A stretch of 64,000 nucleotides of DNA from Taxillus chinensis. Taxonomy: Eukaryota; Streptophyta; Magnoliopsida; Santalales; Loranthaceae. The first letter of the stretch is position 1, and each line of letters opens with the position of its first letter. The notes under the pieces were generated by a model, which did no database searches, was not told where the DNA came from, and saw only the letters and a list, made by a program, of their open reading frames with translations. Positions 3,130 through 39,594 of the stretch are shown here, one piece after another. Both the position numbers and the translations under genes were made by a program. Where the stretch lies: the NCBI GenBank assembly GCA_023512835.1, contig CM042089.1, positions 16,604,562 through 16,668,561 of the forward strand. Reading direction: 5' to 3'.

Positions 3130-4654
3130 TGATAACGTGCATTTTATGCCGTTATTCTAGTGTTTATTTAGGATGTTTAAGAGCATGATTAGAGCCTTAT
3201 TGCTTCATATATCATATATATTTGCTCTAACCCCTAGGAAGATGCTATTGGCAAATACATGCGTTTTTAAGCTGTTTTGGCAGATTTTGGACCTCACTTT
3301 TGACATAGTAGATGGCCTCAAACAATTTGCGTGCAAGAACAAAAGTTGCTTGGAATGATGTCCTCTACCTGCCACAGAAATTTCAGAGCATTTGGAGCTG
3401 AACGTGAATTCACCCAATTCACGTGCAAGCCTATTTTTGCCTCTCAGGCCTCTACATGATGCAAGGAAGCTTGGGGTGAAGTTTGAGCTGATTTGGAGGT
3501 GCACGTGAATTCACCATATCACGTGCAAATTGGCGTGCAGAGATATTTTTGGACCGATCCAATCGTTTTTCCATGCCGATCATTTGTTCCTGGAAGGCCC
3601 AAGTCCAAATTGTGGATGGAAGATAGAGTTTTTAATGTTTCGAGTGTTACTTATCAAAACTACGCCGTTTTGATAAGTGGGCTAGGGTACACACCTCAAG
3701 GCCCATCCAAACTCTATAAATAAGAGCTCCACGCCCCTTGCTAGCCAAGCCTAACCCCCCTACACGTTTTTAGAGAGAGAGAGAGAGGCTCCACGACTTG
3801 GAGGTGCTCCTTGACCTAGGAGAGCAGCCGTCGCAGCAGCCGTCATGAGCCCGTCGCAGCTGCGTCGCGGATTTTGGAGCCTGGATTTGAAGCTTTGCTT
3901 GTGCGCGTGATCAAGAAGAAGATGTTGAGCTTTTCGCTTTGGTTTTGCTTGTAATCATGCGTGAGTAGTCTTATAATCTAGGGGAGCAATGTAGCCCCCT
4001 TGTTGCTTTGCCGTGTTTATGAATATTTGGGTTTGGATGATTGAGTTTTGCATGTTTTATGAATCTGTTCTTAATTCTATCTTTGGATGTACACCTTGAT
4101 ATTCTTAGCCCTAGTCTCAGGGCGGATTGAGATTCATAACTTATTTGTGATTGGTGTGATCATTATCCTTTTGCAAGTATGATTTATTGGCTTTGCATGT
4201 TTGTGTGTTTAGATGACCATTCTGGCATACAACTCTTAAAAGGACCTCAATGACCATTTGTTGTCCTTGGCTTATGTTTAGCATGTTTTCAATCAGACAA
4301 CCCTAATATCATGAACCAGTAGAGATAACATAGGGAGGTGAAATTGTGACCCTAGATGCTTTTAATCCTTGAATCTTAATCCTAAAATCAACTTACTTTC
4401 TTTGTTTATTCAGAAAACCAAATAAAAATTAGATCTTTAGTTTAAAAAAGAAAACTTTTTGCCAAGACATTTTATAGAACAAGAGTAATTGGGTGATTTG
4501 ATTTGAGAACTAGAGAACTAGGTTAATCCCTGTGGGTTCGACCCCTTTCTTGTTGCTTATTCTTTTAGTGCAAACTTAGGGAATTTATTATTTTGAAGAG
4601 AGATTTAACGACATTAGCTAGCTCTTTTAGAGAGGCTAAAAATCTTGTCTGTCA
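3130..4654 (+). repeat. E1 5' LTR
   Basis: 1525 bp, TGATAACG...CTGTCA. It matches the 3' LTR almost base for base, apart from small indels. A notable one lies in the GTCGCAGCC-rich leader: near 3830-3875 the copy number and order of the CGTCGCAGC unit differ from the 3' LTR (15405-15440). Small frames seen in it recur in every LTR of the family and are not genes. Confidence 0.95.
3357..3722 (+). promoter_or_regulatory. E1 U3 promoter block: CACGTG motifs, palindrome, TATA box
   Basis: Contains CACGTG-type motifs in paired inverted arrangement (near 3418, 3500, 3519), then a palindrome at 3652-3675 with arms TATCAAAAC and GTTTTGATA around TACGCC, then a TATA box TATAAATA at 3715-3722. CACGTG is the plant G-box core bound by bZIP/bHLH factors, which is established knowledge; use here is inference. 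The same layout recurs in the chromovirus LTRs of this window. Confidence 0.65.
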
Positions 4655-4657: not shown

Positions 4658-4675
4658 TGGCGCCGTTGTCGGGGA
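4658..4675 (+). other. E1 primer binding site (tRNA-Asp type)
   Basis: TGGCGCCGTTGTCGGGGA, three bases after the LTR end. This is the tRNA-Asp primer site typical of Athila/Tat elements, with one difference (T for C) from the version in E2 and D. Confidence 0.93.
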
Positions 4676-4911
4676 TTCAACGGTTAACTAGTTTTTAAAA
4701 TCAACATTGAGTGAAATTGTTTGAATTCTGATCTTGGTGTTTTTATTTTGTCTTTTATTTTCTGTTATTTTGTGTTCTTTATTTGTTTATTTTTGCATTG
4801 TTCGGAGTCGCTTGGGTGTGTTCTTGTTGTTTTACGGGAACATACATCAAGGATTCCTAGTTGTGCATGCAAAGAGAGGAGGATATACAATTTACGCGGG
4901 AACCTGAAAGG

Positions 4912-8979: not shown

Positions 8980-10287
8980 GAAGTTGTTTGAGGTGCATCA
9001 TCTTCCTTGGTTTGCTGATATAGCAAATTATTTAGCCACTGGGTTCATACCCAAGCAGTTAGACTACCACCAGAGAAAGAAATTGGTAGTGGACGCTAGG
9101 AAATACATTTGGGAAGACCCAATTCTTTATAGGAGGTGTCCAGACCAAATCATTAGAAAGTGTGTCCTTGAGGAGGAGGTCGATGACATAATACATCATT
9201 GTCATGCATCACATTATGGGGGCCACTTTGGGGTGTAGAGAACTGTGGCTAAGATCATGCAGTGTGGCTTTTATTGGCCTCACATGGTGAAAGACACCTA
9301 TGTCTACATCAAAAAGTGTGATAGATGTCAAAGGGTAGGTGGTTTGTCTAGGAAAAATGAGATGCCCTTAACTGGAATCCTTCCGGTTGAAATTTTTGAC
9401 ATTTGGGGCATTGACTTCATGGGGCCATTCCCCAATTCAGATGGGTACTCATACATTTTGCTTGCTGTGGATTATGTGTCTAAGTGGGTAGAAGCTATTC
9501 CTACTAGAGTGAATGATGCTAGGGTTGTGACTCACTTCCTTACTAGGAACATCTTTAGCCGTTTTGGGACACCAAGGGCTATAATCGATGATGAGGGTAG
9601 TCATTTCGCAATAAATTGTTTGATAAATTATTGAACAAGTATGGTGTCACTCATAGGAAGTCTTTAGCTTACCACCCACAAGCTAATGGACAAGCGAAGT
9701 GTCCAACAAGGGAGATTAAGGCCATTTTAGAGAAAACTGTTGGAGCCAATAGGAAAGATTGGTCTCAAAGGCTTGATGAAGCCTTATGGGCATATAGGAC
9801 AGCTTACAAAACTCCCATTGGGATGTCACCTTACCATATTCTATATGGTAAGGCATGTCACTTGCCTGTGGAACTAGAACACAAGGCTCATTGGGCCTTG
9901 AAGAAGTTAAATTTCAACCCACAAGAGATCAAGGAGCTTAGGATGACTCAATTAATTGAGTTAGATGAGCTTAGGTTGGATGCCTATGATAGTGCTAAAT
10001 TTTACAAAGAAAGAACTAAGAAATGGCATGATAGGCAACTCAACAATGAACCTTTAACCTTAGGGCAGAAAGTTCTTCTATTTAACACAAGGTTGAGGTT
10101 ATTTCCTGGCAAATTAAGGTCCAAGTGGATGGGACCTTTTGTGATAGTTGATAAGAAGCCATATGGGAGCTTTGAGCTCCAAGTCGTAGATGGCAAGAAA
10201 TTTTGGGTGAATGGCAATAGGTCAAACCATACTTTGATTCAACTCGAGAGGGAGATAGTTGATTCCCTCTCTTTCACCATTGCTTGA
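8980..10287 (+). pseudogene. E1 integrase
   Basis: Zinc-binding HHCC region: [13 protein letters not shown] (about 9195-9235), interrupted by a TAG at 9236, then CKKCDRC-like KKCDRCQRVGG (9310-9345). Catalytic core: GIDFMGPFP (9407), a DEGSHF stretch after the second Asp (9588), and the Glu helix HPQANGQAK...REIKAILEK (9670-9745). A frameshift near 9610 divides the core. C-terminal region [25 protein letters not shown] (about 10020-10090). No chromodomain, as expected for the Athila lineage. The frame closes at 10285-10287. Confidence 0.92.
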
Positions 10288-10498
10288 TCATAACTGCAAG
10301 TCTAGCTACAGACTTTAAATAAAGCGCTGGTTGGGAGGCAACCCAATGTTTATTGCTGTGTTTTATTTTATGTTATTTTCTCTTATTTGTTTTTTTCAAT
10401 AAATTTGTTTGCAAGCTAACCATTGTGCAGGAGACTTTGTTCCTTTCTTAGCTAGCTATCATATGGAGGCCCAAAAATGCAAAATACAGATTTTAGCC
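10288..10498 (+). other. E1 spacer after integrase
   Basis: Short non-coding spacer with the phrase GGTTGGGAGGCAACCCA near 10329, which commonly follows integrase in Athila elements. E2 has the same spacer followed by about 250 bp that E1 has lost. Nothing else is visible. Confidence 0.6.
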
Positions 10499-10830
10499 CT
10501 CATAGAAGCTTCCTACAATTCACGTGCAAAAGGAAGTATTGCTTGCCAGCTCAGTGGGGACCTACCACCAAAGTTTGGGACGATTCTGACCTGCACGCCA
10601 ATTCAGCCAATTCACGTGCGAGAGGGTATTTTGGTCGAACACTCGAAAAGTTAGGGGCACGTGTATCACGCCAATTGGAGCCTCTTTCCTTCGCACGCTA
10701 TATAAAGGGAGGCCATCTTCAAAGGCTTCCACACCAAAATCACTCCGGATCCGAGTATTATAGAAGCTCTGCCCTTTTGCTCTCTTGCTCTTCGCTTTTC
10801 CGCTCTTGTTCTTATTTTCTCATTCCAAAG
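10499..10830 (+). promoter_or_regulatory. internal promoter-like block before the accessory ORF (E1)
   Basis: Carries TTCACGTGC motifs near 10519 and 10611 and GGCACGTGTATCACGCC near 10658, then a TATA box TATATAAA at 10699-10706 and a pyrimidine-rich stretch (CTCTTGCTCTTCGC near 10780) leading to an ATG at 10831, 125 bp beyond the TATA box. It resembles the U3 block of the LTRs but lies inside the element. E2 preserves the same arrangement in mirror image. Activity as a promoter is inference. Confidence 0.6.
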
Positions 10831-13157
10831 ATGGTGCGCACAAGGAGGGCCGGCCAGGAGGAGGTGCACTCACCTAGTGCTGATAGCCAACCTGAGGAGG
10901 AGATACTCTTGGGGCATGCTCTTGACATGCAGGCTTTGGAGGCTTCGTAGCCGGGCCGGGCTAGAGAGGTGGTCGTTAAAATTCAAACTCGGGATTACAA
11001 AGGTTAGTATCCCGCACCCGGCTATTTCCTATTCTCGCCTTACAAGACTTCTATGAATCGTCTCTCTGGGGAGTGAGGATGAACCGATAGGGGTTGTGCA
11101 AGGGGTTTATGTCGGATAACCCCCGATATTATTAGAAATTGCTTTAACCTCCCTGAACCCAGTAGTAGTTTCCCTCGGCTAAGCCTAGGAGAATTTGGTA
11201 CTGCATGTAACTATGCTAGAAAATTTCAAAGTCGAAGGCGGTATACCAAGAATGGTTTTGTTGGAAAATTTAGATGCCTAGCTTACCTGGTAGGGAAATG
11301 CTTATTGATTCGGACAGTGGGCTAGATAGTGTGCCTAAGCCACACCTGGAGTTCATGTATAGCATTGATCATATGCTAAATGTGGATTGGGCCACTACCA
11401 TTTTTAAATGGTGGAAGAAAAACTCATCCAAGCGAGATAAATGGCAAGAATGTTGTGTGTGATATTTCAAAGCATGCCTGCTTTGCAATTTTCCTCCATG
11501 GAGAGCATTACTTTTCCTTCTCACTTGGGTGTTAAGAGTATTGCAAGCTGAAGGAGGTTTGGGGGGTCGATACCGCAGAGGTCATTGGGCAACCAATGTT
11601 CCTCCTCCATCACACCCCGCTAGGCACGGTGTTCATGTGGAGCGATCCACCTGGACTTTGCAAGGGAGACCTCTCCTCATTTGGATCAAAGGAAGCGGAC
11701 TCTATACGAGACTCACCGCCATGTACATGCGGTTCAATGTACACAAAGAAGACATTTTCAATTTCTTTCAAGGCATTAGTGGGCAGGTGGTGAGTGAAGT
11801 GGAGGTCATCAATTGGGCAATCACTAATGGGCACATCACTAATGCCCAATTTGAAGAATTAATGGCCCTCATCTCTCGGAGACCAACAAGCTACTTCACA
11901 ACCTAGAACCGAGCATGGGAGGCCCCAGATGTAGCCGCTCATGCATCACCTAGAGCATGGGAGGCCCCGAAGCTCCTCCTGCTGCATCTATCGAAGCTTG
12001 GAGGCAAGAAACACAGCAGCTCAGGGAGGCCAATGCCAGAACTCGGCGCGAGGTGGAAGCCCCGAGGAAGGACAACAAAGAAGTCAAAGGCCTCCTAGGC
12101 AAAATCTGGAAGGCTTTGAGCAAGAGGAAAGCATCAAAACGTTCTCCTATAGTGGAGATATCCGATGAAGAACCCTCTCCATCCCCCCGAAGATGCTTAT
12201 CCAGCCCCAGGCAGTCCACCTCAACCAGAACCTTCAGCTCGGCCATCTTACTATCAACCTCAAGAGGAGGCGAGCGCAGCGACGGGGTATTCACCCTTCC
12301 AGGCCTTTTACGGATCCTGCATATTCTCAGGCCCTGGTGCCTGCTATACTTCCAAGATCTTGGGGTGCATACATGCCTAATGAACCTGAAGATCTACTTG
12401 GCCCTCCCGTTCATTTAATCATTAATCCAGCTTTATCGTCCGAAGAGAGCCAAGCGGCATTTGAAGAATTCATCAATTCCACAGGTCATAGGGCTCGATT
12501 TATACGGGATAATGATATCTTCACTCCTTTTAGCTTGAAGAGGATCTCGAGAGAATGAATATCTCTATGCCGACGAGATAGACCTCTTCGCAGGACCATG
12601 CGGTATGTAGTGGAGGCCGAGCCTCATAATTACCCCTTAGCCGGGTACACTTCCATCATGCTGTGCGAGCTTTTCAATCAACCCTTGTCCGAAGAGGTGT
12701 GGCGCCAACGCATTAATGGAGAGAATGAAGGGCACCGCCCTTGGCATGGTATGCATGAGGTGCCGATTCCGGTGCACATTGACCGCCACTATGTACTTGT
12801 CCGTGTGAATCTGGATGTAGGCCATGCTTGTGCTATATGATCCAAGCCAAGGCGAAGGGTTTGCTAGACGGAAAAGACAGTTAGTGCATGGGTTCATCAA
12901 ACGCATGAAAGTAGCAATGATCAAAGAAGGCTTGTTGGCGGACAAGCTCCCTCTTATTCACTACAATGAAATGCAAATTCCCCAACAGCCTGACCAATTC
13001 AATTTGTGGGATCTTTGTTTGCTACTACATGATGGGTATTCTGCAAGGGAAGGAAAATTGGGAAGTGCGTGGCGAGACGTCGGGTGACTTTGTGGCTCAG
13101 GTGCGACGAATGGTGGCCAATGTCATCTACTATTACAGTGTGCCAAACCAGGGGTAA
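10831..13157 (+). pseudogene. E1 accessory ORF with C-terminal C48/Ulp1-like cysteine protease domain
   Basis: About 775 codons, decayed. The start MVRTRRAGQEEVHSP matches E2; GAG to TAG at 10948-10950 closes it early. The N-terminal third (to about 11850) holds LEFMYSIDHMLNVDWATTIFKWW and resembles the plant-transposon domain found in Athila env-position ORFs. A charged, probably coiled region (11990-12145) ends in SPIVEISDEEPSPS (SUMO-interaction-like, core 12149-12172). The C-terminal part matches C48 peptidases: HYVLVRVNLD with His at 12787-12789, YDPSQ with Asp at 12839-12841, a Gln-rich IPQQPDQF, then CGIFVCYYM with Cys at 13005-13007. A one-base insertion lies between His and Asp and another before Cys. 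C48 enzymes cleave SUMO-type conjugates. No membrane segment or signal peptide, so not a typical envelope protein. Confidence 0.75.
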
Positions 13158-14716
13158 CTGTTTTTCCTACTCCTTCTTTTATGCCATGCGGACATAGCAT
13201 ATTTTAAGTGTGGTGTATGGGGAGTGACTTGAGCCACTTGCTTGTCTTTTATGTTGTGATTGCATGTTTTATTTATAATTAAAAAAAAAAAAAAAACAAA
13301 CTATTTTTATTTGCATGATTGTTTGAGTTGTTTGATTGAATGATTTGTTTGTGGAGACATGGATATTAAGTATGCAATTTTGGCTTAAAATTTAATTTTT
13401 ATGCCACATTAGTATCATGTTGTGATAAGGGTGTTAAAGTAGTTAAAATGTGCTCTGAATTGGTTTAATCATGTCTTTATCTTTTGAATGATATCACCAT
13501 GTTTTTGGAGCTGAGTTTTGAATATTAGCTGAGCATGAAATGCTATGATAGACCTAAGTAACCTTTAAAGTTGAGTGAAAAAGAAATGAAAAATGAGAAC
13601 AGCTTCTTTTAGCCCTTGAGTGACATTTATGGGGTATGGGTAATAGTTTGATTTGCTACTCATCTTGCATTCAACATTGGTTATTTAATGGTAGGAGTCA
13701 AGTAAGCATGTGATTACTTATTAGTGCTCAGTGTTTGGTGTGTGGAGTTAGGATGCAAAACCTCTAAGTCATTGTGACTGTCTTTGCATTCTTTTCTTTA
13801 TTTGGAAAAGGCTGTGATATGGAATGTGAAAAAGCCATCACTTAATTGGGAAATGGGATGTGAGACATCAATGAATTATTTTGTCTCTCCTTATGTAGCA
13901 AAATGGCAAGGAGTTTGCATCAGAAAAATCAGTCTTATTTATGTGTTATGTGAGTAAAAAAAAAAAAGAGTGAATAATCCATCAAGGGAGAGCATAAAAT
14001 GCAACCTTGTAAGGTTATTACTTAAAAAAAAACAGAAAAAAAAAAAAAGAAGGATTCAAAATAAAAGCCTCAATGGCTTGATGTTTATGTGTGATTGTTT
14101 AGATTTGTAGCCACATTGGCTGAGTTTTTGTTTATTTGAGAATGTTGAGCTCAATTCTTTGGCTCATGGTCTTGTTTTATCAGTTAGTAGACTAGAGTGT
14201 GAGTTTATTGAGTTTAGAATAGAGTGTGAGTTCAAATAAAGTAGAATAGAGGGTGTGTTTTCTTTGATGAGCACAATAGGGAACTCTCATGATTGCTTGG
14301 CAAGTACTTAATCAATAGCTGATGGCGAGTGTAGAGATAGAGTTTTTCCATCCATTGTTCATTGATAGGTATTGGGCTTGAGAATTATTATATTTGAGTG
14401 AGGCTGCTTATCCTTGGTAAGAACTTAAAGGGAAACTAGGTGCTATTTTATCATGGATTGCTTGCTCATATCTGAAATTTAAGTGGTGATATTGCATGGT
14501 TGTTGGACTAGGGATATGGACATGAATGAACTAAGCTATGACTCATTTTGATGCTTAAATTCCCATTTCATCATGATAGAGTTGCATGCTTAGGAAACCA
14601 TGATTCTCCTTGATTGTTATTTTATTTTTCTTCCGTTTGATTGCGTGTTTATTTTATTTTTTGCATGCTTGTATGTTTTTGCTTGAGGACAAGCAATGGT
14701 TCAAGTGTGGTGTATT
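13158..14716 (+). other. E1 non-coding 3' tail and polypurine tract
   Basis: AT-rich, without coding frames. Near 13204 it holds TTTAAGTGTGGTGTATGGGG, which resembles the end of the tail, GGTTCAAGTGTGGTGTATT (14698-14716), the likely polypurine tract directly before the 3' LTR. Poly-A runs occur near 13281, 13957 and 14024-14048. The phrase TTGCTTGAGGACAAGCAATGG (split here across 14678-14699) is usual in this position in Athila/Tat elements. Confidence 0.65.
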
Positions 14717-16221
14717 TGATAACGTGCATTTTATGCCGTTATTCTAGTGTTTATTTAGGATGTTTAAGAGCATGATTAGAGCCTTATTGCTTCATATATC
14801 ATATATATTTGCTCTAACCCCTAGGAAGATGCTATTGGCAAATACATGCGTTTTTAAGCTGTTTTGGCAGATTTTGGACCTCACTTTTGACATAGTAGAT
14901 GGCCTCAAACAATTTGCGTGCAAGAACAAAAGTTGCTTGGAATGATGTCCTCTACCTGCCACAGAAATTTCAGAGCATTTGGAGCTGATTGTGAATTCAC
15001 CCAATTCACGTGCAAGCCTATTTTTGCCTCTCAGGCCTCTACATGATGCAAGGAAGCTTGGGGTGAAGTTTGAGCTGATTTGGAGGTGCACGTGAATTCA
15101 CCATATCACGTGCAAATTGGTGTGCAGAGATATTTTTGGACCGATCCAATCGTTTTTCCATGCTGATCATTTGTTCCTGAAGGCCCAAGTCCAAATTGTG
15201 GATGGAAGATAGAGTTTTTAATGTTTCGAGTGTTACTTATCAAAACTACGCCGTTTTGATAAGTGGGCTAGGGTACACACCTCAAGGCCCATCCAAACTC
15301 TATAAATAAGAGCTCCACGCCCCTTGCTAGCCAAGCCTAACCCCCCTACACGTTTTTAGAGAGAGAGAGGCTCCACGACTTGGAGGTGCTCCTTGACCTA
15401 GGAGAGCAGCCGTCGCAGCCGTCGCAGCAGCCGTCGCGGATTTTGGAGCCTGGATTTGAAGCTTTGCTGTGCGCGTGATCAAGAAGAAGATGTTGAGCTT
15501 TTCTGCTTTGGTTTTGCTTGTAATCATGCGTGAGTAGTCTTATAATCTAGGGGAGCAATGTAGCCCCCTTGTTGCTTTGCTGTGTTTATGAATATTTGGG
15601 TTTGGATGATTGAGTTTTGCATGTTTTATGAATCTGTTCTTAATTCTATCTTTGGATGTACACCTTGATATTCTTAGCCCTAGTCTGGGGCGGATTGAGA
15701 TTCATAACTTATTTGTGATTGGTGTGATCATTATCCTTTTGCAAGTATGATTTATTGGCTTTGCATGTTTGTGTGTTTAGATGACCATTCTGGCATACAA
15801 CTCTTAAAAGGACCTCAATGACCATTTGTTGTCCTTGGCTTATGTTTAGCATGTTTTCAATCGAACAACCCTAATATCATGAACCAAGAGAGATAACATA
15901 GGGAGGTGAAATTGTGACCCTAGATGCTTTTAATCCTTGAATCTTAATCCTAAAATCAACTTACTTTCTTTGTTTATTCAGAAAACCAAATAAAAATTAG
16001 ATCTTTAGTTTAAAAAAGAAAACTTTTTGCCAAGACCTTTTATAGAACAAGAGTAATTGGGTGATTTGATTTGAGAACTAGAGAACTAGGTTAATCCCTG
16101 TGGGTTCGACCCCTTTCTTGCTGCTATTCTTTTAGTGCAAACTTAGGGAATTTATTATTTTGAAGAGAGATTTAACGACATTAGCTAGCTCTTTTAGAGA
16201 GGCTAAAAATCTTGTCTGTCA
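14717..16221 (+). repeat. E1 3' LTR
   Basis: 1505 bp, TGATAACG...CTGTCA, followed by the target duplication CTTGT (16222-16226). It carries the same U3 block and a TATA box TATAAATA at 15301-15308. Few substitutions from the 5' LTR suggest a fairly young insertion; I did not count them over the full length. Confidence 0.95.
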
Positions 16222-16292
16222 CTTGTCCTCTTGGGTGCAAGGCATGGGTATCACTAACCGGTTCTCAGTGTTAGGAAATCCGGGGCGTGACA
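16222..16292 (+). repeat. old chromovirus-like LTR fragment, right part
   Basis: Continuation of 2691-3129 after E1 is removed. It reads ...AACCGGTTCTCAGTGTTAGGAAATCCGGGGCGTGACA, matching the chromovirus LTR 3' terminus (compare 43679-43713). Instead of a primer site, it is followed at once by a truncated LTR of the miniature-element array. Confidence 0.75.
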
Positions 16293-16322
16293 CGCTAGCA
16301 TCACGCTGTTTGGGGCGTGACA
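16293..16322 (-). repeat. array LTR 1, truncated (first 30 bp only)
   Basis: CGCTAGCATCACGCTGTTTGG then GGCGTGACA. Only the minus-strand start of the LTR remains, joined directly to the chromovirus LTR end. Confidence 0.75.
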
Positions 16323-16622
16323 TCCTCCCCCATATGATTTCATAATGCCCTGGTTCCATCAGCGAGTTCGGAGGAACCAAGATCGTACAGCGCACTTCTT
16401 TTGACTCGCGTAGTGCCGCTCTGTCCCATCCTTGGGTACTCCGGCCACCTTGGCTCGGCGGACAATGACTTAGTGGACGCGATGCGTGCAAGACCTTCGT
16501 CTGGTGAACCCCTATTTATTGGGGGCTCCCTCCAAACGTGGATAAGGGACCATGCATATCTCTTACGAGAGTGCTTCAGCGAGCTATCTGGGAAACGAGC
16601 CGCAATTGCTTTGATACCACAT

Positions 16623-26291: not shown

Positions 26292-27791
26292 TGACAGACA
26301 GATTTTTAGCCTCTCTAAAAGAGCTAGCTAATGTCGTTAAATCTCTCTTCAAGATAATAAATTCCCTAAGTTTGCACTAAAAGAATAGCAGCAAGCAAGG
26401 GGTCGAACCCACAGGGATTAGCCTAGTTTTCTAGTTCTCAAATTAAAGCACCCAATTACTATTGTTCTATAAAATGTCTTGGCAAAAAGTTTTCTTTTTT
26501 AAACTAAAGATCTAATTTTTATTTGGTTTTCTGAATAAACAAAGAAAGTAAAGTGATTTTAAGATTAAGATTCAAGGATTAAAAGCATCTAGGGTCACAA
26601 TTTCACCTCCCTATGTTATCTCTACTGGTTCATGGTATTAGGGTTATCTGATTGAAAACATGCTAAACACAAGCCAAGGACAACAAATGGTCATTGAGGT
26701 CCTTTTAAGAGTTGTATGCCAGAATGGTCATCTAAACATACAAACATGCAAAGCCAATAAATCATACTTGCAAAAGGATAATGATCACACCAAATACAAA
26801 TAAGTTATGAATCTCAATCCGCCCTAGACTAGGGCTAAGAATACCAAGGTGTACATCCAAAGATAGAATTTAAGAACAGATTCATAAAACATGCAAAACT
26901 CATTCATCCAAACCTAATATTCATAAACATAGCAAAGCAACAAGGGGGCTACATTGCTCCCCTAGATTAAAGAACTACTCACGCATGATTACCAAGCAAA
27001 ACCATAGCAGAATAGCTAAACATCTTCTTCTAATCCACGCGCACAGCAAAGCTTCAAATCCAGGCTCCAAAATCCGCGACGGTCGCTGCGACGGTCGCTT
27101 CTCCTAGGTCAAGGACAGCCTCCCAAGACGTGGAGCCTCTCTCTCTCTCAAAAACGTGTAGGGGGTCTAGGGATAGGTTACATGGGGCGTGGAGGCTTTA
27201 TTTATAGAGTTTGGATGGGCTTTGAGGCGTGTACCCTAGCCCATTTATCAAAACGGCGTAGTTTTGATAAGTAACACTCGAAACTTTAAAATCTCTATCT
27301 TCCATCCACAATTTGGACTTGGGCCTTCAGGAACAAATGATCGGCATGGAAAAATGATAAGATCGGTCCAAAAATATCTCTCGCACGTCAATTTGCACGT
27401 GATATGGTGAATCCACGTGCACCTCCAAATCAGCTCAAACTTCTCCCCAAGCTTCCTTGCATCCTGTAGAGGCCTGAGAGGCAAAAATAGGCTTGCACAT
27501 GAAATGGGTGAATTCACGTGTAGCTCCAAATGCTCTGAAATTTCTGTGGTAGGTAGAGGACATCATTCTAAGAAACTTTTGTTCTTGCATGCCAATTGTT
27601 TGAGGCCATCTACTATGTCAAAAGTGAGCTCCAAAATCTGCCAAAACAGCTTAAAAACGCATGTATTTGCAAATAGCATCTTCCTAGGTGTTAGAGCAAA
27701 TATATATGATATATGAAGCAATAAAGCTCTAATCATGCTCTTAAACATCCTAAATAAATACTAGAATAACAGCATAAAATGCACGTTATCA
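26292..27791 (-). repeat. E2 3' LTR
   Basis: 1500 bp, minus-strand TGATAACG...CTGTCA. TATA box at 27199-27206 (reverse). The purine tract complement AATACACCACACTTGAACC follows at 27792. Confidence 0.95.
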
Positions 27792-29292: not shown

Positions 29293-31652
29293 TTACCCCT
29301 GGTTTGGCACACTGTAATAGTAGATGACATTGGCCACCATTCGTCGTACTGAGCCACAAAGTCAACCGACGTCTCGCCGCGCACTTCCCAAGTTTCCTTC
29401 CCTTACGAAATAGCCATCATGTAGTAGCAAACAAAGATCCCACAACTGAATTGGTCAGTCGCCGAGGGATTTCCATTTCGTTGAGGTGAATAAGAGGGAG
29501 CTTATCCTGCAACAATCCTTCTTTGATTATCGCCACTTTCATTCGTTTGATGAACCCATGCACTAACTGTCTTTTCCGTCTAGCAAACCCTTCGCCTTGG
29601 CTTGGATCATATAGCACGGCATGTCCTACATCCAGATTCAAACGGACAAGTACATAGTGGCGGTCAATATGCACCGGAATCAGCACCTCATGCATACCAT
29701 GCCAAGGGCGGTGCCCTTCATTCTCACCATTGATGTGATGGGGCCACACCTCTTCGGACAAAGGTTGATTGAAAAGCTCACACAGCATGATGGAAGTGTA
29801 CCGAGCTAAGGGGTAGTTATGAGGCTCAGCCTCTACTACATAGCGCATGGTCTCGAAAAGAGGTCTATCTCGTCGGCGTAGAGATATTCATTCTCGGAGA
29901 TCCTCTTTAAGCTAAAAGAGGTGAAGATATCATTATCCCGTATAAAGCGAGCCCTCTGAACCGTGGAATTGATGAACTCTTCAAATGCTGCTTGGCTCTC
30001 GTTAGATGATAAAGCTGGATTAATGATTAAATGGACAGGAGGGCCAAGTAGATCTTCAGGTTCAGCAGGCATGCATGCACCCCAAGAGACAGGAAATATA
30101 GCAGGCACCAGAGCTTGAGAATATGCAGGATCAGTAAAAGGCCGGGAAGGGTGAATACCCTTCGCCGGCTCTGTCTCCTCTTGAGGCCGGAAGGGTGAAT
30201 ACCCTGCCGCTGGGCTCTGCCTCCTCTTGGTGATAGTGGGATGGCCGAGTCGAAGATTTTGGTTGAGGTGGATCTGCCTGGGCTAGATAGGAATCTTCGG
30301 GGGATGGAGAGGGTTCTTCATCGGATATCTCCACTATAGGAGAACGTTTTGATGCTTTCCTCTTGCTCAAAGCCTTCCAGATTTTGCCTAGGAGGCCTTT
30401 AACTTCTTTGTTGTCCTTCCTCAGGGCTTCCACCTCGCTACTGGGTTCCTGGCATTTGCCTCCCTGAGCTCTTGTGTTTCTTGCCTCCAAGCTTTGGTAG
30501 ATGCGGCGGGAGGAGCTTCGGGGTTTCCCATGCTCTAGACGATGCATGAGCGGCTACATCCTGGGGCCTCCCATGCTCGGTTCTAGGTTGTGAAGTAGCT
30601 TGTTGGTCTCCCAGAGATGAGGGCCATTAATTCTTCAAATTGAGCACTTGGTGATGTGCCCATTAGTGATTGCCCAATTGATGACCTCCACTTCGCTCAC
30701 TACTTGCCCACTAATGCCTTGAAAGAAATTGAAAATATCTTCTTTGTGTACATTAAACCGCATGTACATGGCGGTGAGTCTCGTATAAAGTCCGCTTCCT
30801 TTGATCCACATGAGGAGAGGTCTCCCTTGCAAAGTCCGTGGATCGCTCCACATGAACACCGTGCCTAGCGGGTCTGGATGGAGGAGGAACATTGGTTGCC
30901 CAATGACCTCTGGTGCTGACCCCCCAAACCTCCTTCAGATGCAATACTCTTAACACCCAGTGAGAAGGAAAAGTAATGCTCTCCATGGAGGAAAAATGCA
31001 AAGCAAGCATGCTTTGAAATATTACACACAAAAGTCTGCCATTTATCTGCTTTGATGAGTTTTTCTTCCACCATTTAAAAATGGTAGTGGCCCAATCCAC
31101 ATTTAGCATATGATCAATGCTATACATGAACTCCAGGTGTGGCTTAGGCACACTATCTAGCCCACTGGTCTGAATCAATAAGCATTTCCCTACCAGGTAA
31201 GCTAGGCATCTAAATTTTCCACCAAAACCATTCTTGGTAAACTGCCTTCGACTTTGAAATTTTCTAGCATAGTTGCATGCAGTACCAAATTCTCCTAGGC
31301 TTAGCTGAGGGAAGCTATCACTGGGTTCAGGGAGGTTAAAGCAATATCTAATAATTTCAGGGGTAATTCTAACATAAACCCCTTGCACAACCCCTATCAG
31401 TTCATCCTCACTCCCAGAGACAGATGCATAGAATTCTTGTAGGGCAGAGTAGGAAATAGCTGGCTGGGCAGATACTAACCTTTGTAATCCCAGATTTTGA
31501 ATTTTAAGAGCCACCTCTCTAGCCCAGCCCGGCTCCGAAGCCTCCAAAGCCTGCATATCAAGAGCATGCCCCAAGAGTATCTCCTCTTCAGGTTGGCTAG
31601 CAGCACTAGGTGAGTGCACCTCCTCCTGGCCAGTCCTCCTTGTGCGCACCAT
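29293..31652 (-). pseudogene. E2 accessory ORF with C48/Ulp1-like domain
   Basis: About 786 codons. The first ~240 are open (MVRTRRTGQEEVHSP to VDWATTIFKWWKK), followed by a frameshift near 31050. The rest is readable in pieces: charged, probably coiled region with LRKDNKEVKGLLGKIWKAL (30400), SPIVEISDEEPSPS (30314-30337 core), linker PAEPEDLLGPPVHLIINPAL (30050), and the C48-like part 29417-29848 with IPVHIDRHYVLVRLNLDVGH and VLYDPSQ in one frame (catalytic His and Asp intact). One base is missing just before the Cys; in the next frame the DNA reads DQFSCGIFVCYYM. Further on a CAA to TAA change closes the frame. Damage sites differ from E1. No signal peptide or membrane helix. Confidence 0.78.
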
Positions 31653-32486
31653 CTTTGGAATGAGAAAATAAGAACAAAGAGCAGAAAACTGAAGAGCAAG
31701 AGAGCGAAAGAGCGAGTTTCTCCTAATACTCGGATCCGGAGTGATTTTGGTGTGGAAGCCTTTGAAGATGGCCTCCCTTTATATAGCGTGCAGAAGGAAA
31801 GATGCTCCAATTGGCGTGATACACGTGCCCCTAACTTTTCAGAGTGTTCTGACCAAAATAGCCCTTGCACGTGAATTGGCCGAATTGGCGTGCAGGTCAG
31901 AATCGTCCCAAACTTTGGTAAGCAATAGTCCCTTCTGCACGTGAATTGTTTGAAGCTTCTAGGAGGGATAAAATCAGTATTTTGCATTTTTGAGCCTCCA
32001 TATGATAGCTAGCAATTCGCGTGCAAGAGTAAACGTGATTCACATGGTCTTCATCTACCATTCCAGAAAGTTACAGCTCAAAAGGAGGTGCACGTGAATT
32101 GGGCAATTCACGTGCAAATTCACGTTCAGGCCCAAACTGGCCCAAATTTCTCCCATGAGTTGCTTATGCATTATGGACCATCTTTAAGTCTTGCACGTGA
32201 ATTGGTTGAGCCCATCTTCAAGCACTTTTGGGCTTCACTTGCTCCTTGCTCCTTGACTTTGACTTTAAAAATAATTCCACAAGTTCAGGACCCAAAAATT
32301 TGCTCATCCTGCAAATGGTTAGTTAAGAAAGAAGCAAAGTCTCCTGCACAATGGTTAGCTTGCAAACAAATTTATTGATTAAAACAAATAAAAGAAAATA
32401 ACATAAAATAAAACATAGCAATAAACATTGGGTTGCCTCCCAACCAACGCTTTATTTAAAGTCTGTAGCTAGACTTTCAATTATGA
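31653..32486 (-). promoter_or_regulatory. E2 internal promoter-like block and post-integrase spacer
   Basis: TATA box (complement TTTATATA, 31778-31785) 126 bp before the accessory ATG. Upstream on the minus strand are several CACGTG motifs (31827, 31868, 31939, 32089, 32108, 32193), including an inverted pair at 32089-32113. The part near the integrase holds the GGTTGCCTCCCAACC phrase at 32430. Longer than in E1, where about 250 bp are missing. No open frame. Confidence 0.62.
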
Positions 32487-33690
32487 TCAGGCAATGGTGA
32501 AAGAGAGGGAATCAACTATCTCCCTCTGAGTTGACCCAAAGTATGGTTTCAGTCTGTTGCCATTCACCCAAAATTTCTTGCCATCTATAGCTTGGAGCTC
32601 AAAGCTCCCATATGGCTTCTTATCAACTATCACAAAAGGTCTCATCCACTTGGACCTTAATTTTCCAGGAAATAACCTCAACCTTGTGTTAAATAGAAGA
32701 ACTTTCTGCCCTAAGGTTAAAGGTTCATTGTTGAGTTGCCTATCATGCCATTTCTTAGTTCTTTCTTTGTAAAATTTAGCACTATCATAGGCATCCAGCT
32801 TAAGCTCATCTAACTCAATTAATTGAGTCATCCTAAGCTCCTTGATCTCTTGTGGGTTAAAATTTAACTTCTTCAAGGCCCAATGAGCCTTGTGTTCTAG
32901 TTCCACAGGCAAGTGACATGCCTTACCATATAGAATACGGTAAGGTGACATTCCAATGGGAGTTTTGTAAGCTGTCCTATATGCCCATAAGGCTTCATCA
33001 AGCCTTTGAGACCAATCTTTCCTATTGGCTCCAACAGTTTTCTCTAAAATGGCCTTAATCTCCCTGTTGGACACTTCTGCTTGTCCATTAGCTTATGGGT
33101 GGTAAGCTAAAGACTTCCTATGAGTGACACCATACTTGTTTAATAATTTGTCAAACAATTTATTGCAAAAATGACTACCCTCATCACTGATTATAGCCCT
33201 TGGTGTCCCAAAACGGCTAAAGATGTTCATAGTAAGGAAGTCTGTCACAATCCTAGCATCATTCACTCTAGTAGGAATAGCTTCTACGCACTTAGACACA
33301 TAATCCACAGCAAGCAAAATGTATGAAAACCCATCAGAATTGGAGAATGGCCCCATGAAGTCAATGCCCCAAATGTCAAAAATTTCAACCTGGAAGGATT
33401 CCGGTTAAGGGCATCTCATTTTTCCTAGACAAACCACCTACCCTTTGACATCTATCACACTTTTTGATGTAGACATAGGTGTCTTTCACCATGTGAGGCC
33501 AATAAAAGCCACACTGCATGACTTGGTCAGGACACCTCCAAAGTGGCCCCCATAATGTGATGCATGACAATGATGTATTATGTCATCTACCTCCTCCTCA
33601 AGGACACACTTTCTAATGACTCGGTCAGGACACCTCCTATAAAGAATTGGGTCTTCCCAAATGAATTTCTTAGCATCCACTACCAATTTC
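32487..33690 (-). pseudogene. E2 integrase
   Basis: [14 protein letters not shown] and KKCDRCQRVGGLSRK give the zinc-binding region (33420-33600), with a small break near 33530 and another near 33400. The catalytic core [22 protein letters not shown] and the Glu-bearing helix follow down to 33060; a TAA replaces a codon in HPQANGQ-like sequence near 33092-33094. The C-terminal region [23 protein letters not shown] is intact to the stop at 32487-32489. Confidence 0.92.
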
Positions 33691-34426
33691 TTTCTCTTGG
33701 TGGTAGTTTAACCGCTTGGGTAGGAACCAGGTGGCTAAATAATTTGCTATGTCGGCAAACCAAGGAAGATGATGCACCTCAAACAACTTCTCATCAGGAA
33801 AGTCATCTACAATGGGTAGAGACTTAGGTGCATTCTCCACACGGGAGAGGTGATCAGCCACGAAATTTAGGGCTCCCTTTGTGTCTCTAATTTCATGGTC
33901 AAATTCTGTAAGAGGAGAACCCATCTAATCAAGCGTGGCTTAGCTTCTTTTTTAGCAAACAAATATTTCAATGCAGCATGATCGGTATAAACAATGACTT
34001 TAGACCCCAAAAGGTAGGGTCTAAACTTGTTGCGACCATAAACCACGGCTAGCAACTCTTTCTCGATGGTGGTATAGTTCTGTTGAGCATCATCTAAGGT
34101 CTTATTAGCATAGTAAATGACCCTAAACACCTTGTCTCGCCTTTGCCCTAAGACTACCCCCACAAGATAATCACTCGCATCACTCATTAGCTCAAAAGGC
34201 CGAGCCCAGTCAGGTGTGACTATAACAGTGCGATGACTAACTTACCCTTGAGGATGTTAAAAGCTTCTAAGCAATCTGCATTAAACTCAAAGCTTGTGTC
34301 TTTTTCTAACAACCTACTCATGGGTTTTGCAATTTTTGAGAAGTCCTTAATGAATCTCCTATAAAAGCCAACATGGCCAAGGAAACTTCTCACTCCTTTT
34401 TCATTGGTTGGAGGTGGCAGTCTCAA
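33691..34426 (-). pseudogene. E2 RNase H and connection
   Basis: [22 protein letters not shown] (connection), [39 protein letters not shown] and [17 protein letters not shown], ending near [10 protein letters not shown]. Frameshifts near 34200-34220 and near 33900. Confidence 0.9.
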
Positions 34427-36476
34427 TAGTGGAGATTTTTGCCTTGTCTACCTCCAAACCATGTGCGACACCTTGTGCCCTAGAACTATCCCCTCGGTTA
34501 CCATGAAATGGCATTTCTCCCAATTTAGGACTAGTTCCTTCTCCTCACATCTCTCTAAGACCACATCTAGATTTCTCAAGACCTTGTTGGTAGGAGGAAC
34601 CAAACACCGAGAAGTCATCCATGAAGACCTCCATGATCTCCTCAACCAAACCCTGAAAAATAGCCACCATACACCTTTGAAAGGTGGCAACGGCATTACA
34701 AAGCCCAAATGGCATTCTCCTAAATGCAAATGTGCCAAAAGGGCACGTGAAGGTGGTCTTTTCTTGGTCCTCAGGCTTAACCATGATCTAATTATACCCG
34801 AAATAGCCATCTAAAAAGCAAGAGTGACTATAGCCAGCTAACTTATCCAACATTTGGTCAATGAAAGGAAGAGAAAAATGATCCTTCCTAGTAGCCTTGT
34901 TCACCTTTCTATAGTCAACACACACTCTCCACCCCGTCACAGTGCGAGATGGGATCAATTCATTTTTCTCATTCTTAATCACGGTCATGCCCCCTTTCTT
35001 GGGCACAACATGCAATGGACTCACCCACTCACTATCAGAAATAGCATAAATTATCCCCGCATTTTTCCATTTTAAAATTTCTTTTCTAACAACTTCTTTC
35101 ATGGCAGGGTTTAATCTTCTTTGTCTTTCAGCAGTGGGTTTAAAATCATCATTCATCAAAATTTTATGCATGCAAATCCCTGGACTAATACCCCTAATGT
35201 CTTCGATGTTCCATCCTAGGGCCTTTTTGTGTTTCCTAAGGACTTCTAGCAATTGAGTACACTCCACATCATTCAAATTAGAAGCAACAATGACAGGGAA
35301 TTTATTTGTAGAGTCTAGAAATTCATACCTTAGGTGTCCAGGCAGCTCCTTCAGTTCGGGAGCTGGAGGCACGTCATCTTCTTTCTCCTCCTCAGCTTGC
35401 TCCAAAGAGTTTGTAGTTTGCTCATCTTCCTCAGCTGTCAAGTACATCTCTTCATCTCGTTGAGCTTCTAAGAGCTGAAGGGCTCCATTATTGGTGGTGG
35501 TAATTTCTTCTGCCAAGTAGTCTTCCACCAATTCCTCAAGGTCTTCAACCCAAAGGCAGTCCTCCTCCTCTTGACCTTGCAAAGCCTTCCCCATGTGGAA
35601 GACTAAAGTCTCCTCATTAATTCTCAGAGTTAGCTGCCCTTGAGCAACATCAATCAATGCACAACCCGTTCTGAGAAACGGTCTTCCAAGGAGTAGCTGA
35701 ACTCCTCTATCTTCTTCCATCTCCAAAACTACAAAGTCTGCTGGAAATATGAAGGAGCCCACTTTAATTAGCACATCTTCAATGATTCCTTCAGGTCTTC
35801 CAGTGGACCGGTCTGCGAACTGCAATGATATGGAAGTGGGCTTCATGCCCTTAAGCCCAAGCTGCTTGTACAAAGCAAAGGAAATCAAATTGATGCTGGC
35901 CCCTAAATCACATAGGGCCTGCTGCTGCGGTGCATTGCCAATCACACAAGGGAGATTAAAACTGCCCGGATCTTTATGCTTGATGGGCAAACTCGTTGAA
36001 CAACACCTGCTCACCTCGTTAGTGATCGCCACCGTCTCATGATCCCCATATTTCCTCTTCTTTGTCACAAAATCTTTGATGTATTTTCTGTACATAGGCA
36101 TCTGCTCCAAGATTTCCACAAATGGAATGTTAATTTCAAGCTTCTTGAACAAACTCAGGAAGCGCTCATACTCTTCCTCAACCCTCTGGTTCCTCAGCCT
36201 CTGAGGAAATGGCATAGTAGGCCTGAGCTCTTGCCTCTGTTCTTCAGCTTTTCTGTCTTGACTATGCTGCTTGTCCTTCTTTTCTTGCACTCTTTCTTCT
36301 TCTTTATCTGATTTTCCTTGGTCTTCAGCTTCCAAGGGTCTGCTTTGTTCTTCTGGAATTGGCCTTTTCTTAGGCTCTTCAGCTTCCTTCAATGCTTTCC
36401 CACTCCTTAGAGTGATAGCCTTGCAACTCTCCTTGGGGTTCACCTCGGTGTCACTTGGAAAAGTGTTGGTGGACAC
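34427..36476 (-). pseudogene. E2 protease and reverse transcriptase, nearly intact
   Basis: Open for 562 codons from 36476 to 34788: gag-pol linker with CKAITLRSGK, KKLEINIPFVEILEQMP, protease LCDLGASINLIS (DLGAS complement at 35895-35909) and LLLGRPFLRTG, then the RT start with EWVSPLHVVPKKGGM and GWRVCVDYRKVNKATRKDH. A TAG at 34788-34790 stands where E1 has a Gln codon (GYNQIM). The same frame then continues through PFGTFAFRRMPFGLCNA and the catalytic FMDDFSVFG (about 34605) to a frameshift near 34590. In this family gag and pol look to be one frame. Confidence 0.94.
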
Positions 36477-37840
36477 CTTTTGATTAGCATTCTGCCATAC
36501 TCACAAGTAACTTCTCCATATTCTTAATTGAAGACTCCATACCATCTACCCTTTCCTTCAGATCACTCACCTCTCTTCTAGCTGTCTCATCATCATGCTG
36601 ATATGTTCTTCTTTGCTGTTGAGGCTGAGGCTGCTGTTGCTCGAATCCAGGAGGTGGATGTAAGAAATTATCGAGTAGCATACGGATTTTGCTTCATCCC
36701 CGGAGGCACATATTTATACCGAGCTGATGTATCTCCCCCTCGGTTCCGATTCTTCCGATATCCCTGAGCTTGTTGTTGGTTCCGATTGTACCCTTGTCCT
36801 TGTTGGTGAGGATAATATTGCCGCTTCGGTATAAGCCTTTCCCTCCAATATAATTTGCATCTTCAGCTCCACTCCATCCTTGCTCGCCCATCGGTGAGGC
36901 GTGTTGTGATCCTTCAACTTTAAGAGCCAACACTTCCATGCTTTTCGCTAGGGCTTGAATCTCGTGCTTGCATATCATTGGAAGAATTATCAATCAAGCT
37001 ATCTTCTCCCTTGGCTTTGAAGTATGCACATTAGACCACCGCCAATCGGCTAATGACAGCCTCTCCAGGAGCTCTGCTTGCTACGTCAGGCTCTAGATTC
37101 ATCAAGCATCCTCCAAGAAATTGCATTCACCTTATCTTGTGAGTGAGACCGAAGACCTGTGTAGAAAGATTCAATTTGAATCCACCGGGGTCTTCCATGA
37201 TCAGGGCATTTACTCACTAAGTCTTTGAAACGCTCCCAAGCTTCATGAAGAGTCTCCATCTCATCTTGCCTGAATCGCTAATCTCCCCTCGAGCTGGATT
37301 ATCTTGGAAGGAGGGAAGTACTTTGACATGAACTTGGTCCGCATCTCCTCCCAAGTGTTGATTGAACCTGTTGGTAGATCGTTGAACCAGCCAAGAGCTC
37401 TATCCCTTAAAGAGAAAGGGAAAAGCCTTAGCTTTATTGCCTCCTCCGACACATTGTTGATCTTGATGGTGTCGCACACCTGGTAGAACCTCATCAAATG
37501 CTGGTGCGGATCATCCACGGCTGTTCCTCCAAACGCGTTGTTGCTCACCATGTTGATCAATGCCGACTTCACTCAAGCTATTTGCTTGGACTCTTGTCTG
37601 CCGAATCCCAGAATAATGGTCTGACATCATTGGCCTCGCATAATCTAAGAAGGTTCTGGGCATAAACCTATTACCCTCTTCTTCTGGATATTGGCCATTG
37701 TAATTGGCCCCTCCTTGTGGTGCACCACCATCAGGTCTGAGATCTGCCATCAAATCACCTACGGATTGCTCCAAGCCTTGTAATGCTTCGTCAGCCTCAC
37801 GTGCTGCTTCCCTAGCTGCTCTACGATGAGCTCTGAACAA
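36477..37840 (-). pseudogene. gag: E2 gag (Athila type)
   Basis: Starts MFRAHRRAAREAAREADEAL at 37840, with a coiled N-terminus. Capsid core NNAFGGTAVDDPHQHLMRFYQVCDTIKIN and LRLFPFSLRDRALGWFNDLP, MRTKFMSKYFPPSKI (37261-37572). C-terminal MLLDNFLHPPPGFE and a coil MESSIKNMEKLLVSMA (36484-36681). Several frameshifts (near 37511, 37261, 36990, 36690). Confidence 0.9.
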
Positions 37841-38072
37841 CCTTTCAGGTTCCCGAGTAAATTGTATATCCTCCTCTCTTTACATGCACAACTAGGAATC
37901 CTCAATGTATGTTCCTGTAAAACAACAAGAACACACCCAGCAGCTCCGAACAATGCAAAATAAACAAATAAAGCACACAAAATAATAGAAAACAAAAGAC
38001 AAAATAAACACCAAGATCAGAATTCAAACAATTTCACTCAATGTTGATTTTGAAAACTAGTTAACCGTTGAA

Positions 38073-38090
38073 TCCCCGGCAACGGCGCCA
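38073..38090 (-). other. E2 primer binding site (tRNA-Asp type)
   Basis: Reverse complement of TGGCGCCGTTGCCGGGGA, three bases from the 5' LTR. Exact Athila/Tat-type site. Confidence 0.95.
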
Positions 38091-38093: not shown

Positions 38094-39594
38094 TGACAGA
38101 CAAGATTTTAGCCTCTCTAAAAGAGCTAGCTAATGTCGTTAAATCTCTCTTCAAGATAATAAATTCCCTAAGTTTGCATTAAAAGAATAGCAGCAAGCAA
38201 GGGGTCGAACTCACAGGGATTAGCCTAGTTTTCTAGTTCTCAAATCAAAGCACCCAATTACTATTGTTCTATAAAATGTCTTGGCAAAAAGTTTTCTTTT
38301 TTAAACTAAAGATCTAATTTTTATTTGATTTTCTGAATAAACAAAGAAAGTAAAGTGATTTTAAGATTAAGATTCAAGGATTAAAAGCATCTAGGGTCAC
38401 AATTTCAACTCCCTATGTTATCTCTACTGGTTCATGGTATTAGGGTTGTCTGATTGAAAACATGCTAAACACAAGCCAAGGACAACAAATGGTCATTGAG
38501 GTCCTTTTAAGAGTTGTATGCCAGAATGGTCATCTAAACACACAAACATGCAAAGCCAATAAATCATACTTGCAAAAGGATAATGATCACACCTAATACA
38601 AATAAGTTATGAATCTCAATCCGCCCTAGACTAGGGCTAAGAATACCAAGGTGTACATCCAAAGATAGAATTTAAGAACAGATTCATAAAACATGCAAAA
38701 CTCATTCATCCAAACCCAATATTCATAAACACAGCAAAGCAACAAGGGGGCTACATTGCTCCCCTAGATTAAAGAACTACTCACGCATGATTACCAAGCA
38801 AAACCATAGCAGAAAAGCTAAACATCTTCTTCTAATCCACGTGCACAAAGAAAGCTTCAAATCCAGGCTCCAAAATCCGCGACGGCCGGCTGCGACGGCT
38901 GCTCTCCTAGGTCAAGGACAGCCTCCAAGACGTGGAGCCTCTCTCTCTCTCTAAAAACGTGTAGGGGGTCTAGGGATAGGTTACATGGGGCGTGGAGGCT
39001 TTATTTATAGAGTTTGGATGGGCTTTGAGGCGTGTACCCTAGCCCATTTATCAAAACGGCGTAGTTTTGATAAGTAACACTCGAAACTTTAAAATCTCTA
39101 TCTTCCATCCACAATTTGGAGTTGGGCCTTCAAGAACAAATGATCAGCATGGAAAAACGATAAGATCGGTCCAAAAATATCTCTGCACGTCAATTTGCAC
39201 GTGATATGGTGAATTCACGTGCACCTCCAAATCAGCTCAAACTTCTCCCCAAGCTTCCTTGCATCCTGTAGAGGCCTGAGAGGCAAAAATAGGCTTGCAC
39301 GTGAAATGGGTGAATTCACGTGCAGCTCCAAATGCTCTGAAATTTCTGTGGTAGGTAGAGGACATCATTCTAAGAAACTTTTGTTCTTGCACGCTAATTG
39401 TTTGAGGCCATCTACTATGTCAAAAGTGAGCTCCAAAATCTGCCAAAACAGCTTAAAAACGCATGTATTTGCAAATAGCATCTTCCTAGGTGTTAGAGCA
39501 AATATATATGATATATGAAGCAATAAGGCTCTAATCATGCTGTTAAACATTCTAAATAAATACTAGAATAACAACATAAAATGCACGTTATCAA
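38094..39594 (-). repeat. E2 5' LTR
   Basis: 1501 bp; matches 26292-27791 with scattered single-base changes and small indels. Target duplication ACAAT follows at 39595. Confidence 0.95.
39002..39490 (-). promoter_or_regulatory. E2 U3 promoter block
   Basis: TATA box at 39002-39009 (complement TATTTATA), palindrome at 39049-39072 (arms TATCAAAAC/GTTTTGATA around GGCGTA), and a CACGTG-rich block 39180-39490. Its distal part (about 39280-39490) is nearly the same as U3 of chromovirus C (49545-49740). Confidence 0.65.

Follow-up and report, generated by a model that had tools for sequence, protein, structure and literature searches.

A C48 peptidase domain in the env-position ORF of gypsy and copia retrotransposons of Taxillus chinensis

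An env-position gene with a C48 domain

The stretch of Taxillus chinensis DNA analyzed here (64,000 nucleotides; contig CM042089.1 of assembly GCA_023512835.1, positions 16,604,562 to 16,668,561 of the forward strand; hereafter, the window) contains two long terminal repeat (LTR)/gypsy elements of Athila-type layout, E1 and E2, each with a damaged sense open reading frame (ORF) between the integrase and the 3′ LTR, in the position of an envelope (env) gene. E1 and E2 are themselves broken copies. Computational comparison with the rest of the source genome (521 Mb, divided into 264 contigs, of which nine or more are 48–60 Mb long) established that the ORF carries a C-terminal Peptidase_C48 domain, that the catalytic residues of this domain are conserved and its ratio of nonsynonymous to synonymous substitution rates (dN/dS) is low, that it is regularly present in the family, and that a related gene occurs in two further families. 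In this one genome, two gypsy families and a copia family carry env-position genes that bear C48 and have an N-terminal domain (N-domain) in common.

The unaltered pieces of the window did not reach the Pfam threshold (best PF02902 match 11.5 bits, E = 0.26; cut-off 20.7), and a search of the PDB with the E2 piece gave no match up to E = 10. The loci fetched from the rest of the genome (L numbers) were more informative. Among the open ORFs of family 1, the gypsy family to which E1 and E2 belong, six of seven exceeded the Pfam C48 cut-off (31.3–43.1 bits, E = 2e-7 to 6e-11), whereas the seventh (L045, identical in location to L032) has a frame change at the Gln before the Cys. Judged by these sequence scores, the match of the open family-1 ORFs to C48 is not a chance similarity. 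The cut-off was also passed by the three ORFs scanned from families 2 and 3 (L061, L062, and L065) and by a relative, L005. A comparison of L041 alone with the PDB gave an alignment to SENP1 (E = 0.02) that includes H, D, IPQQ, and CG, and a ten-sequence profile matched SENP1 at 1.9e-11 with the His, Asp, Gln, and Cys aligned, followed by SENP5, SENP2, SENP7, and Ulp1; weaker matches of the same profile were Dub2 (5.1e-4), Dub1 (0.006–0.008), and SENP8 (0.05). A six-sequence profile (family 1, L061, and L005) faintly matched "Protease" chains (4piq, E = 0.38), which we take to be adenovirus protease. In an alignment of ten sequences (four each from families 1 and 3, plus L061 and L005), the His, Asp, Gln, and Cys columns did not vary, the second Gln of IPQQ being presumably the catalytic one. 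The C48 call, which the initial annotation of the window had made from its letters alone, is therefore supported by the open family-1 ORFs and the SENP1 profile match, even though the window pieces are below threshold.

The same annotation had described an ORF of about 780 codons after the integrase, with four motifs in the C-terminal third. The length agrees with that of the open relatives L041, L039, and L040 (813–830 codons from stop to stop, approximately 770–790 from the same ATG), and the ORF does lie between the integrase and the 3′ LTR on the same strand. In E1, it extends from the ATG of MVRTRR... at 10831 to the stop after ...VPNQG, which ends at 13157. HYVLVRxNLD, VLYDPSQ, and CGIFVCYYMM were found in both E1 and E2, but IPQQPDQF only in E1, the damaged E2 reading IPRR. 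These motifs lie in three frames in E1 and in two in E2, where the domain tail occupies a third. The lesions had been described as an extra base before the Cys in E1 and a missing one in E2, which understates the damage to E1, because stops and frame changes occur along its entire ORF. The C48 part has two frame changes in each element: in E1, one between the His and the Asp and another just before the Cys; in E2, one at the Gln before the Cys and another further on. As the lesions adjoining the Cys differ, the proposed independence of the damage is supported.

A single ancestral lesion before the Cys, shared by E1 and E2, was ruled out, as the lesions are not the same. Varied small indels recur at the Gln codon before the Cys (29406–29510 in E2 and the matching stretch of copies), some of them common to several copies, and this recurrence is probably in part an artefact of the copy ranking.

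Regular presence, conserved residues, and selection

At least 150 relatives of family 1 are present in the genome, this being the number scored among 3,394 candidates. Probes of 36 bases, with up to three mismatches and both strands added, matched the integrase at 1,048 places, the N-domain at 704, and the C48 domain at 743, and the reversed-pattern controls matched at 0. C48 is thus as common as the N-domain, and these counts bear out the claim that it is a regular part of the family. For 9 of the 28 exact integrase matches listed on contig C1, a listed exact C48 match lay 3.31–3.37 kb downstream on the same strand, which is a lower bound because only exact matches were paired.

The 49 family-1 copies examined were E1, E2, and L010–L058 (without the duplicates L045 and L052; L009 is E2 itself). 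The His and Asp codons were kept in all 49 copies and the Cys codon in 45; since the His and Asp lie inside the ranking query of most copies, the Cys is the fairer test. At the Gln position, there were 29 Gln, 15 gaps, 4 Arg, and 1 stop, counts that are biased because the ranking query runs on in the shifted frame of E2, so that copies broken there rank high. The 23 copies in which C48 shows no frame change, among them the reference L041, form a fairer set, though many of them were fetched for their long frames; they retained the His in 23, the Asp in 23, the Gln in 22, and the Cys in 22. The initial annotation had named two outcomes that would overturn it, the lack of a significant C48 match and intact relatives in which the Cys and His positions vary; neither was observed.

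Selection was estimated from six family-1 and five family-3 ORFs picked for their open frames, a choice that hides stops but not amino-acid changes; differing ends of some family-1 frames raise dN. In the C48 domain, dN/dS was 0.13–0.56 for family 1 (15 pairs) and 0.13–0.55 for family 3 (nine of ten pairs, the tenth having no finite dS), and was at most 0.40 in 21 of these 24 pairs, dS being saturated (1.2–2.2) in the pairs with L062. Upstream of C48, dN/dS was 0.28–0.60 in family 1 and 0.19–0.36 in family 3, except for L065–L066, the most recent family-3 pair, which gave 1.47 (interval 0.73–2.87).

A related ORF in a second gypsy family and a copia family

The initial annotation had considered a single Athila-type family, a frame that proved too narrow: a related ORF with N-domain, linker, and C48 also occurs in a second gypsy family and a Ty1/copia family. 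Genome-wide, 150 of 4,308 candidates were scored against the Pfam C48 profile (hence a lower bound), and eight further places with long frames, L059–L066, were fetched. Family 2 is represented by L061, with gypsy reverse transcriptase (RT), RNase H, and integrase upstream (L067), the integrase being 58% identical to that of E2 over 193 residues. The other seven places (L059, L060, and L062–L066) share a third kind of ORF and form family 3. Copia pol was found upstream of the ORF at three of the four places examined: a Ty1/copia RT in L065 (RVT_2, 2.9e-58) and, from reading and DNA alignment to L065, a copia-type RNase H in the corresponding position of L059 and L066; within 2.5 kb upstream of L062, no copia pol was found. 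In the L065 element, a gag-like frame, copia pol, and the ORF lie between matching LTR stretches (710 bases, 95.9% identical), as read outside the 3.0 kb between the fetched stretches L068 and L073. Its 5′ LTR is adjoined by tggtatcagagc, presumably a primer site of the tRNA-iMet type, and by a run of C; Sireviruses have been described as having a C-rich signal toward the 5′ LTR end (PMC2829016, available part). By these characters, family 3 is classed as Ty1/copia and Sirevirus-like.

Both halves of the ORF are common to the three families. Matches to Transposase_32, all below its cut-off, were found at the N-terminus of four of the seven open family-1 ORFs and in L061 (7.1e-8), and the alignment of the N-domains of families 1 and 2 with that of family 3 gave an hhalign probability of 99.6% (E = 2.6e-24, score 166 over 221 columns), whereas none of 40 column shuffles scored above 18.5. 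In family 1, the linker reads SKRKASKR (last residue altered in two) and then PIVEISDEE in six of six ORFs, and three of four family-3 ORFs have GRKRAHRTTVISDSDDDDD or nearly so, a looser basic–hydrophobic–acidic run. We take these stretches to resemble a nuclear signal followed by a SUMO-interacting motif (SIM) with an acidic tail.

In the C48 domain, the hhalign probabilities were 98.7% between families 1 and 2, 95.3% between 2 and 3, and 87.0% between 1 and 3. A different C48-bearing repeat, L003, aligned with all three families at 97.9–98.5%, so a common descent of these C48 domains apart from those of other elements is not proven. A tree of 11 C48 rows had long branches and did not separate the families. 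L003 belongs with L002, L004, L006, and L008 to another C48-bearing repeat family, and in L003, the one member scanned, there was no Transposase_32 match. L005 is a diverged relative of the family-1 C48, with 40% identity to L041. L001, a 1,092-codon open frame on the small contig C191, scored best for C48 in the genome search; the make-up of this protein is unlike that of the other matches, and the contig may be foreign.

Proposed function and alternative explanations

The env-position ORF would encode a two-domain, probably nuclear protein with a Transposase_32-like N-domain, a basic and SIM-like linker, and a C-terminal Ulp1/SENP-type cysteine protease. We infer that it is translated from the element transcript, enters the nucleus, and is brought by its N-domain to chromatin or the pre-integration complex, where C48 would act as a protease and free host silencing factors or element proteins of SUMO (or of a different ubiquitin-like tag); the benefit would be element copies that are less silenced or better integrated. 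A nuclear protein able to bind and cut SUMO would suit a mechanism in which silencing factors or the integration complex are stripped of SUMO. On balance, we lean, without great confidence, toward such a nuclear protease of the SUMO type, acting against silencing or assisting nuclear steps, and the shared gene suggests a common tool for host protein tags rather than an envelope.

It is somewhat unlikely that the gypsy and copia families each acquired C48 from ULP-bearing elements or genes of their own and share only the N-domain by descent. Such uptake would be in line with the unseparated families of the C48 tree and with the closer similarity of the family-3 C48 to L003 (97.9%) than to family 2 (95.3%) or family 1 (87.0%). 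However, the same two-domain order is found at the same place in both superfamilies and the N-domain is strongly homologous, which makes one two-domain ancestor the simpler explanation; the missing Transposase_32 match in L003 points the same way, but weakly, as L065 likewise lacks one. An active C48 protease without a silencing role, which would act on element proteins or on a tag other than SUMO (ubiquitin or NEDD8), like the bacterial Dub1 and Dub2, is unlikely. The best matches of the ten-sequence profile are the SUMO proteases SENP1, 5, 2, and 7; a SIM-like motif is present in the family-1 linker, with a loose form in family 3; and E2 has its own aspartic protease. In its favor are the weaker matches of that profile to Dub2, Dub1, and SENP8 and the faint match of the six-sequence profile to 4piq, presumably the adenovirus protease.

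We consider it very improbable that C48 is inert, a passenger picked up a single time and since replicated with the element. Many copies, E1 and E2 included, are broken in this ORF, and the capture of gene pieces is frequent in plant elements (PMC13317346, available part), but the low dN/dS, the retained catalytic residues, the equal abundance of C48 and the N-domain, and the presence of C48 in three diverged families of two superfamilies all speak against this explanation. A true envelope or movement protein is scarcely to be expected from an ORF with an enzyme domain, conserved catalytic residues, and a basic stretch resembling a nuclear localization signal (NLS), despite its position and the env-like name in the literature (PMC7264820, available part).

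Several points weigh against the nuclear SUMO-protease function and the common gene. The N-domain is below the Pfam Transposase_32 cut-off in every matching ORF, and for the family-3 ORF L065 Pfam gives no Transposase_32 match at E ≤ 1. The alignment of the family-1 and family-3 C48 domains alone is weak (hhalign 87%, E = 4e-6). The Pfam and PDB matches span only the catalytic half of the domain (positions 86–190 of 217 of PF02902 in L041), the part upstream being too diverged for confirmation, and proteases of other tags also match the profile, if more weakly. Searches of a large protein database, a collection that may hold few plants, returned no relative at E ≤ 0.001 for the E2 piece (8 candidates), for residues 560–813 of L041 (359 candidates), or for the whole of L061 (7,991 candidates scored). 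A frame change interrupts C48 in 26 of the 49 family-1 copies, many of which were ranked by a query that favors such breaks. The SIM pattern was composed after the sequences had been seen; its strict form occurs in 1% of L041 shuffles and is absent from L065 and L061, and its loose form is absent from L061 and L062, so the motif is a lead only. All of the results come from one genome.

Comparison with known elements

No report of C48 in the env-position ORF of a plant LTR element was found in the part of the open-access literature surveyed. E1 and E2 share with Athila-type elements that have a 3′ env-like ORF the gypsy order of pol, a primer site that we take to be of the tRNA-Asp type, and a sense ORF between the integrase and the 3′ LTR. 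The Athila 14 element of sunflower has a 487-residue ORF that reportedly matches Transposase_32 in part and is predicted to contain a nuclear signal, and the words Ulp1, SUMO, and protease do not occur in the available part of that text (PMC11728184). Family 1 differs from these elements in its C-terminal C48 domain. Family 3 resembles the SIRE copia elements in its copia RT, its primer site of presumed tRNA-iMet type, the adjoining run of C, and an ORF between pol and the 3′ LTR. In the available parts of two studies, 74% of SIRE elements have a 3′ sense ORF (PMC6317226), the env-like ORFs of Sireviruses are very variable (PMC6317226 and PMC2829016), and the extra ORFs are very heterogeneous, with any known domain in 21.4%, and are read as independently acquired (PMC6317226). 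In contrast to the SIRE ORFs thus described, the N-domain of family 3 matches that of gypsy elements, which argues that some extra ORFs are distant relatives missed by pairwise search. The main text of that study, in its available part, does not contain Ulp1, pfam02902, or peptidase, and C48 might be found in its Additional file 4, a domain list (PMC6317226).

Proteases of this type are carried by other mobile elements, as described in the available parts of the following papers. The nearest analogue in print is that of the Vandal Mutator-like elements (MULEs), in which an anti-silencing VANC gene with Ulp1 (KIU) has been connected with hypomethylation of the family that carries it, although what Ulp1 contributes is unknown (PMC13317346); these are also mobile-element proteins with Ulp1, but the elements are DNA transposons and the partner domain is another. 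Ginger1 has an integrase closest to those of Athila/Tat, together with an Ulp1 or OTU protease, but the protease lies within the transposase of an animal DNA transposon (PMC2836005). The nematode NeSL and Utopia retrotransposons carry an Ulp1-like cysteine protease that is N-terminal, in a non-LTR element (PMC4640811), and plant CACTA elements, which are DNA transposons, have Peptidase_C48 in ORF2, restricted to some types (PMC8978399). What purpose env-like genes serve in plant retrotransposons has been left open (PMC7264820 and PMC2829016, available parts), and a protease with named catalytic residues makes their function directly testable.

It is possible, though we would stop short of calling it probable, that the env-like genes of Athila gypsy and Sirevirus copia elements descend, at least partly, from one two-domain gene (Transposase_32-like plus ubiquitin-like protease) that was passed between the superfamilies, in which case the plant "env" would be mainly a nuclear counter-silencing or integration enzyme. 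If so, an accessory gene common to gypsy and copia elements would have moved between superfamilies and been retained in each by selection, and LTR retrotransposons would join MULEs, CACTA, Ginger1, and NeSL as carriers of SUMO-type proteases.

Layout and age of E1 and E2, and other features of the window

E1 (3130–16221, plus strand) and E2 (26292–39593, minus strand) are LTR elements flanked by the 5-base target-site duplications CTTGT and ATTGT, respectively, and are 91–93% alike in two long aligned stretches. Pfam domains of E2 occur in gypsy order (gag, aspartic protease, RNase H, and integrase core, and then the env-position ORF), and the order protease, RT, RNase H, integrase is present, with the protease match just below the Pfam cut-off. 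The primer-binding site of both elements reads tggcgccgttg(t/c)cggggatt, which we take to be of the tRNA-Asp type, as in the Athila lineage. The LTR pairs are 97.6% (E1) and 97.4% (E2) identical, and their divergence, counting substitutions only, is 0.0087 and 0.0224; at substitution rates of 0.7–1.3e-8 per site per year, these values correspond to ages of roughly 0.3–0.6 million years for E1 and 0.9–1.6 million years for E2. The coordinates of the features are given in Table 1.

Table 1. Features of E1 and E2 in window coordinates (tRNA type and NLS-like and SIM-like labels are our assumptions)
Element	Feature	Position	Strand	Remark
E1	5′ LTR (TGATAACG...TGTCA)	3130..4654	+	Read from sequence; target-site duplication CTTGT at 3125–3129 and 16222–16226
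E1	Primer-binding site, presumed tRNA-Asp type	4658..4677	+	
E1	env-position ORF, broken	10831..13157	+	N-domain, linker, and C48 parts scattered over three frames
E1	NLS-like basic stretch SKRKASKR	12119..12142	+	Within piece 11954–12415
E1	SIM-like motif IVEISDEE	12149..12172	+	
E1	C48 piece with catalytic His (HYVLV)	12559..12837	+	
E1	C48 piece with catalytic Asp (LYDPSQ) and IPQQPDQF	12821..13084	+	
E1	C48 piece with catalytic Cys (CGIFVC) and C-terminus	12921..13154	+	
E1	3′ LTR	14717..16221	+	
E2	3′ LTR	26292..27791	-	Target-site duplication ATTGT at 26287–26291 and 39594–39598
E2	env-position ORF, broken	29293..31652	-	Range from the initial annotation
E2	C48 piece with catalytic Cys (SCGIFVCYYMM)	29406..29501	-	
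E2	C48 piece with catalytic His and Asp	29420..29887	-	PF02902 11.5 bits, below cut-off 20.7
E2	SIM-like motif IVEISDEE	30314..30337	-	SKRKASKR before it
E2	Stop-to-stop piece, Transposase_32-like N-domain	30756..31760	-	PF20167 E 2.1e-6, 28.2 bits, below cut-off 45
E2	Integrase	32490..33404	-	Core 33096–33404, rve 7.9e-16; further part 32490–33092
E2	RNase H	33870..34241	-	RT_RNaseH 1.1e-34
E2	Aspartic protease and RT start	34791..36500	-	Asp_protease_2 E 1.6e-4, 22.8 bits (cut-off 24.3); RT by alignment to L067
E2	gag	37264..37572	-	Retrotrans_gag 1.8e-9
E2	Primer-binding site, presumed tRNA-Asp type	38071..38090	-	
E2	5′ LTR	38094..39593	-	

Just past the 3′ end of E1, positions 16289–20364 contain repeats of several hundred bases that are approximately 73–83% alike and often spaced at 683. 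An LTR-like pair (47993–49885 and 54641–56534) with a divergence of 0.012 bounds positions 47993–56534 and has a stretch of 320–370 bases, 81–86% alike, in common with the LTRs of E1 and E2. Positions 60000–64000 hold part of a further gypsy element, the protease and RT of which are 46–64% identical to those of E2 at the protein level.
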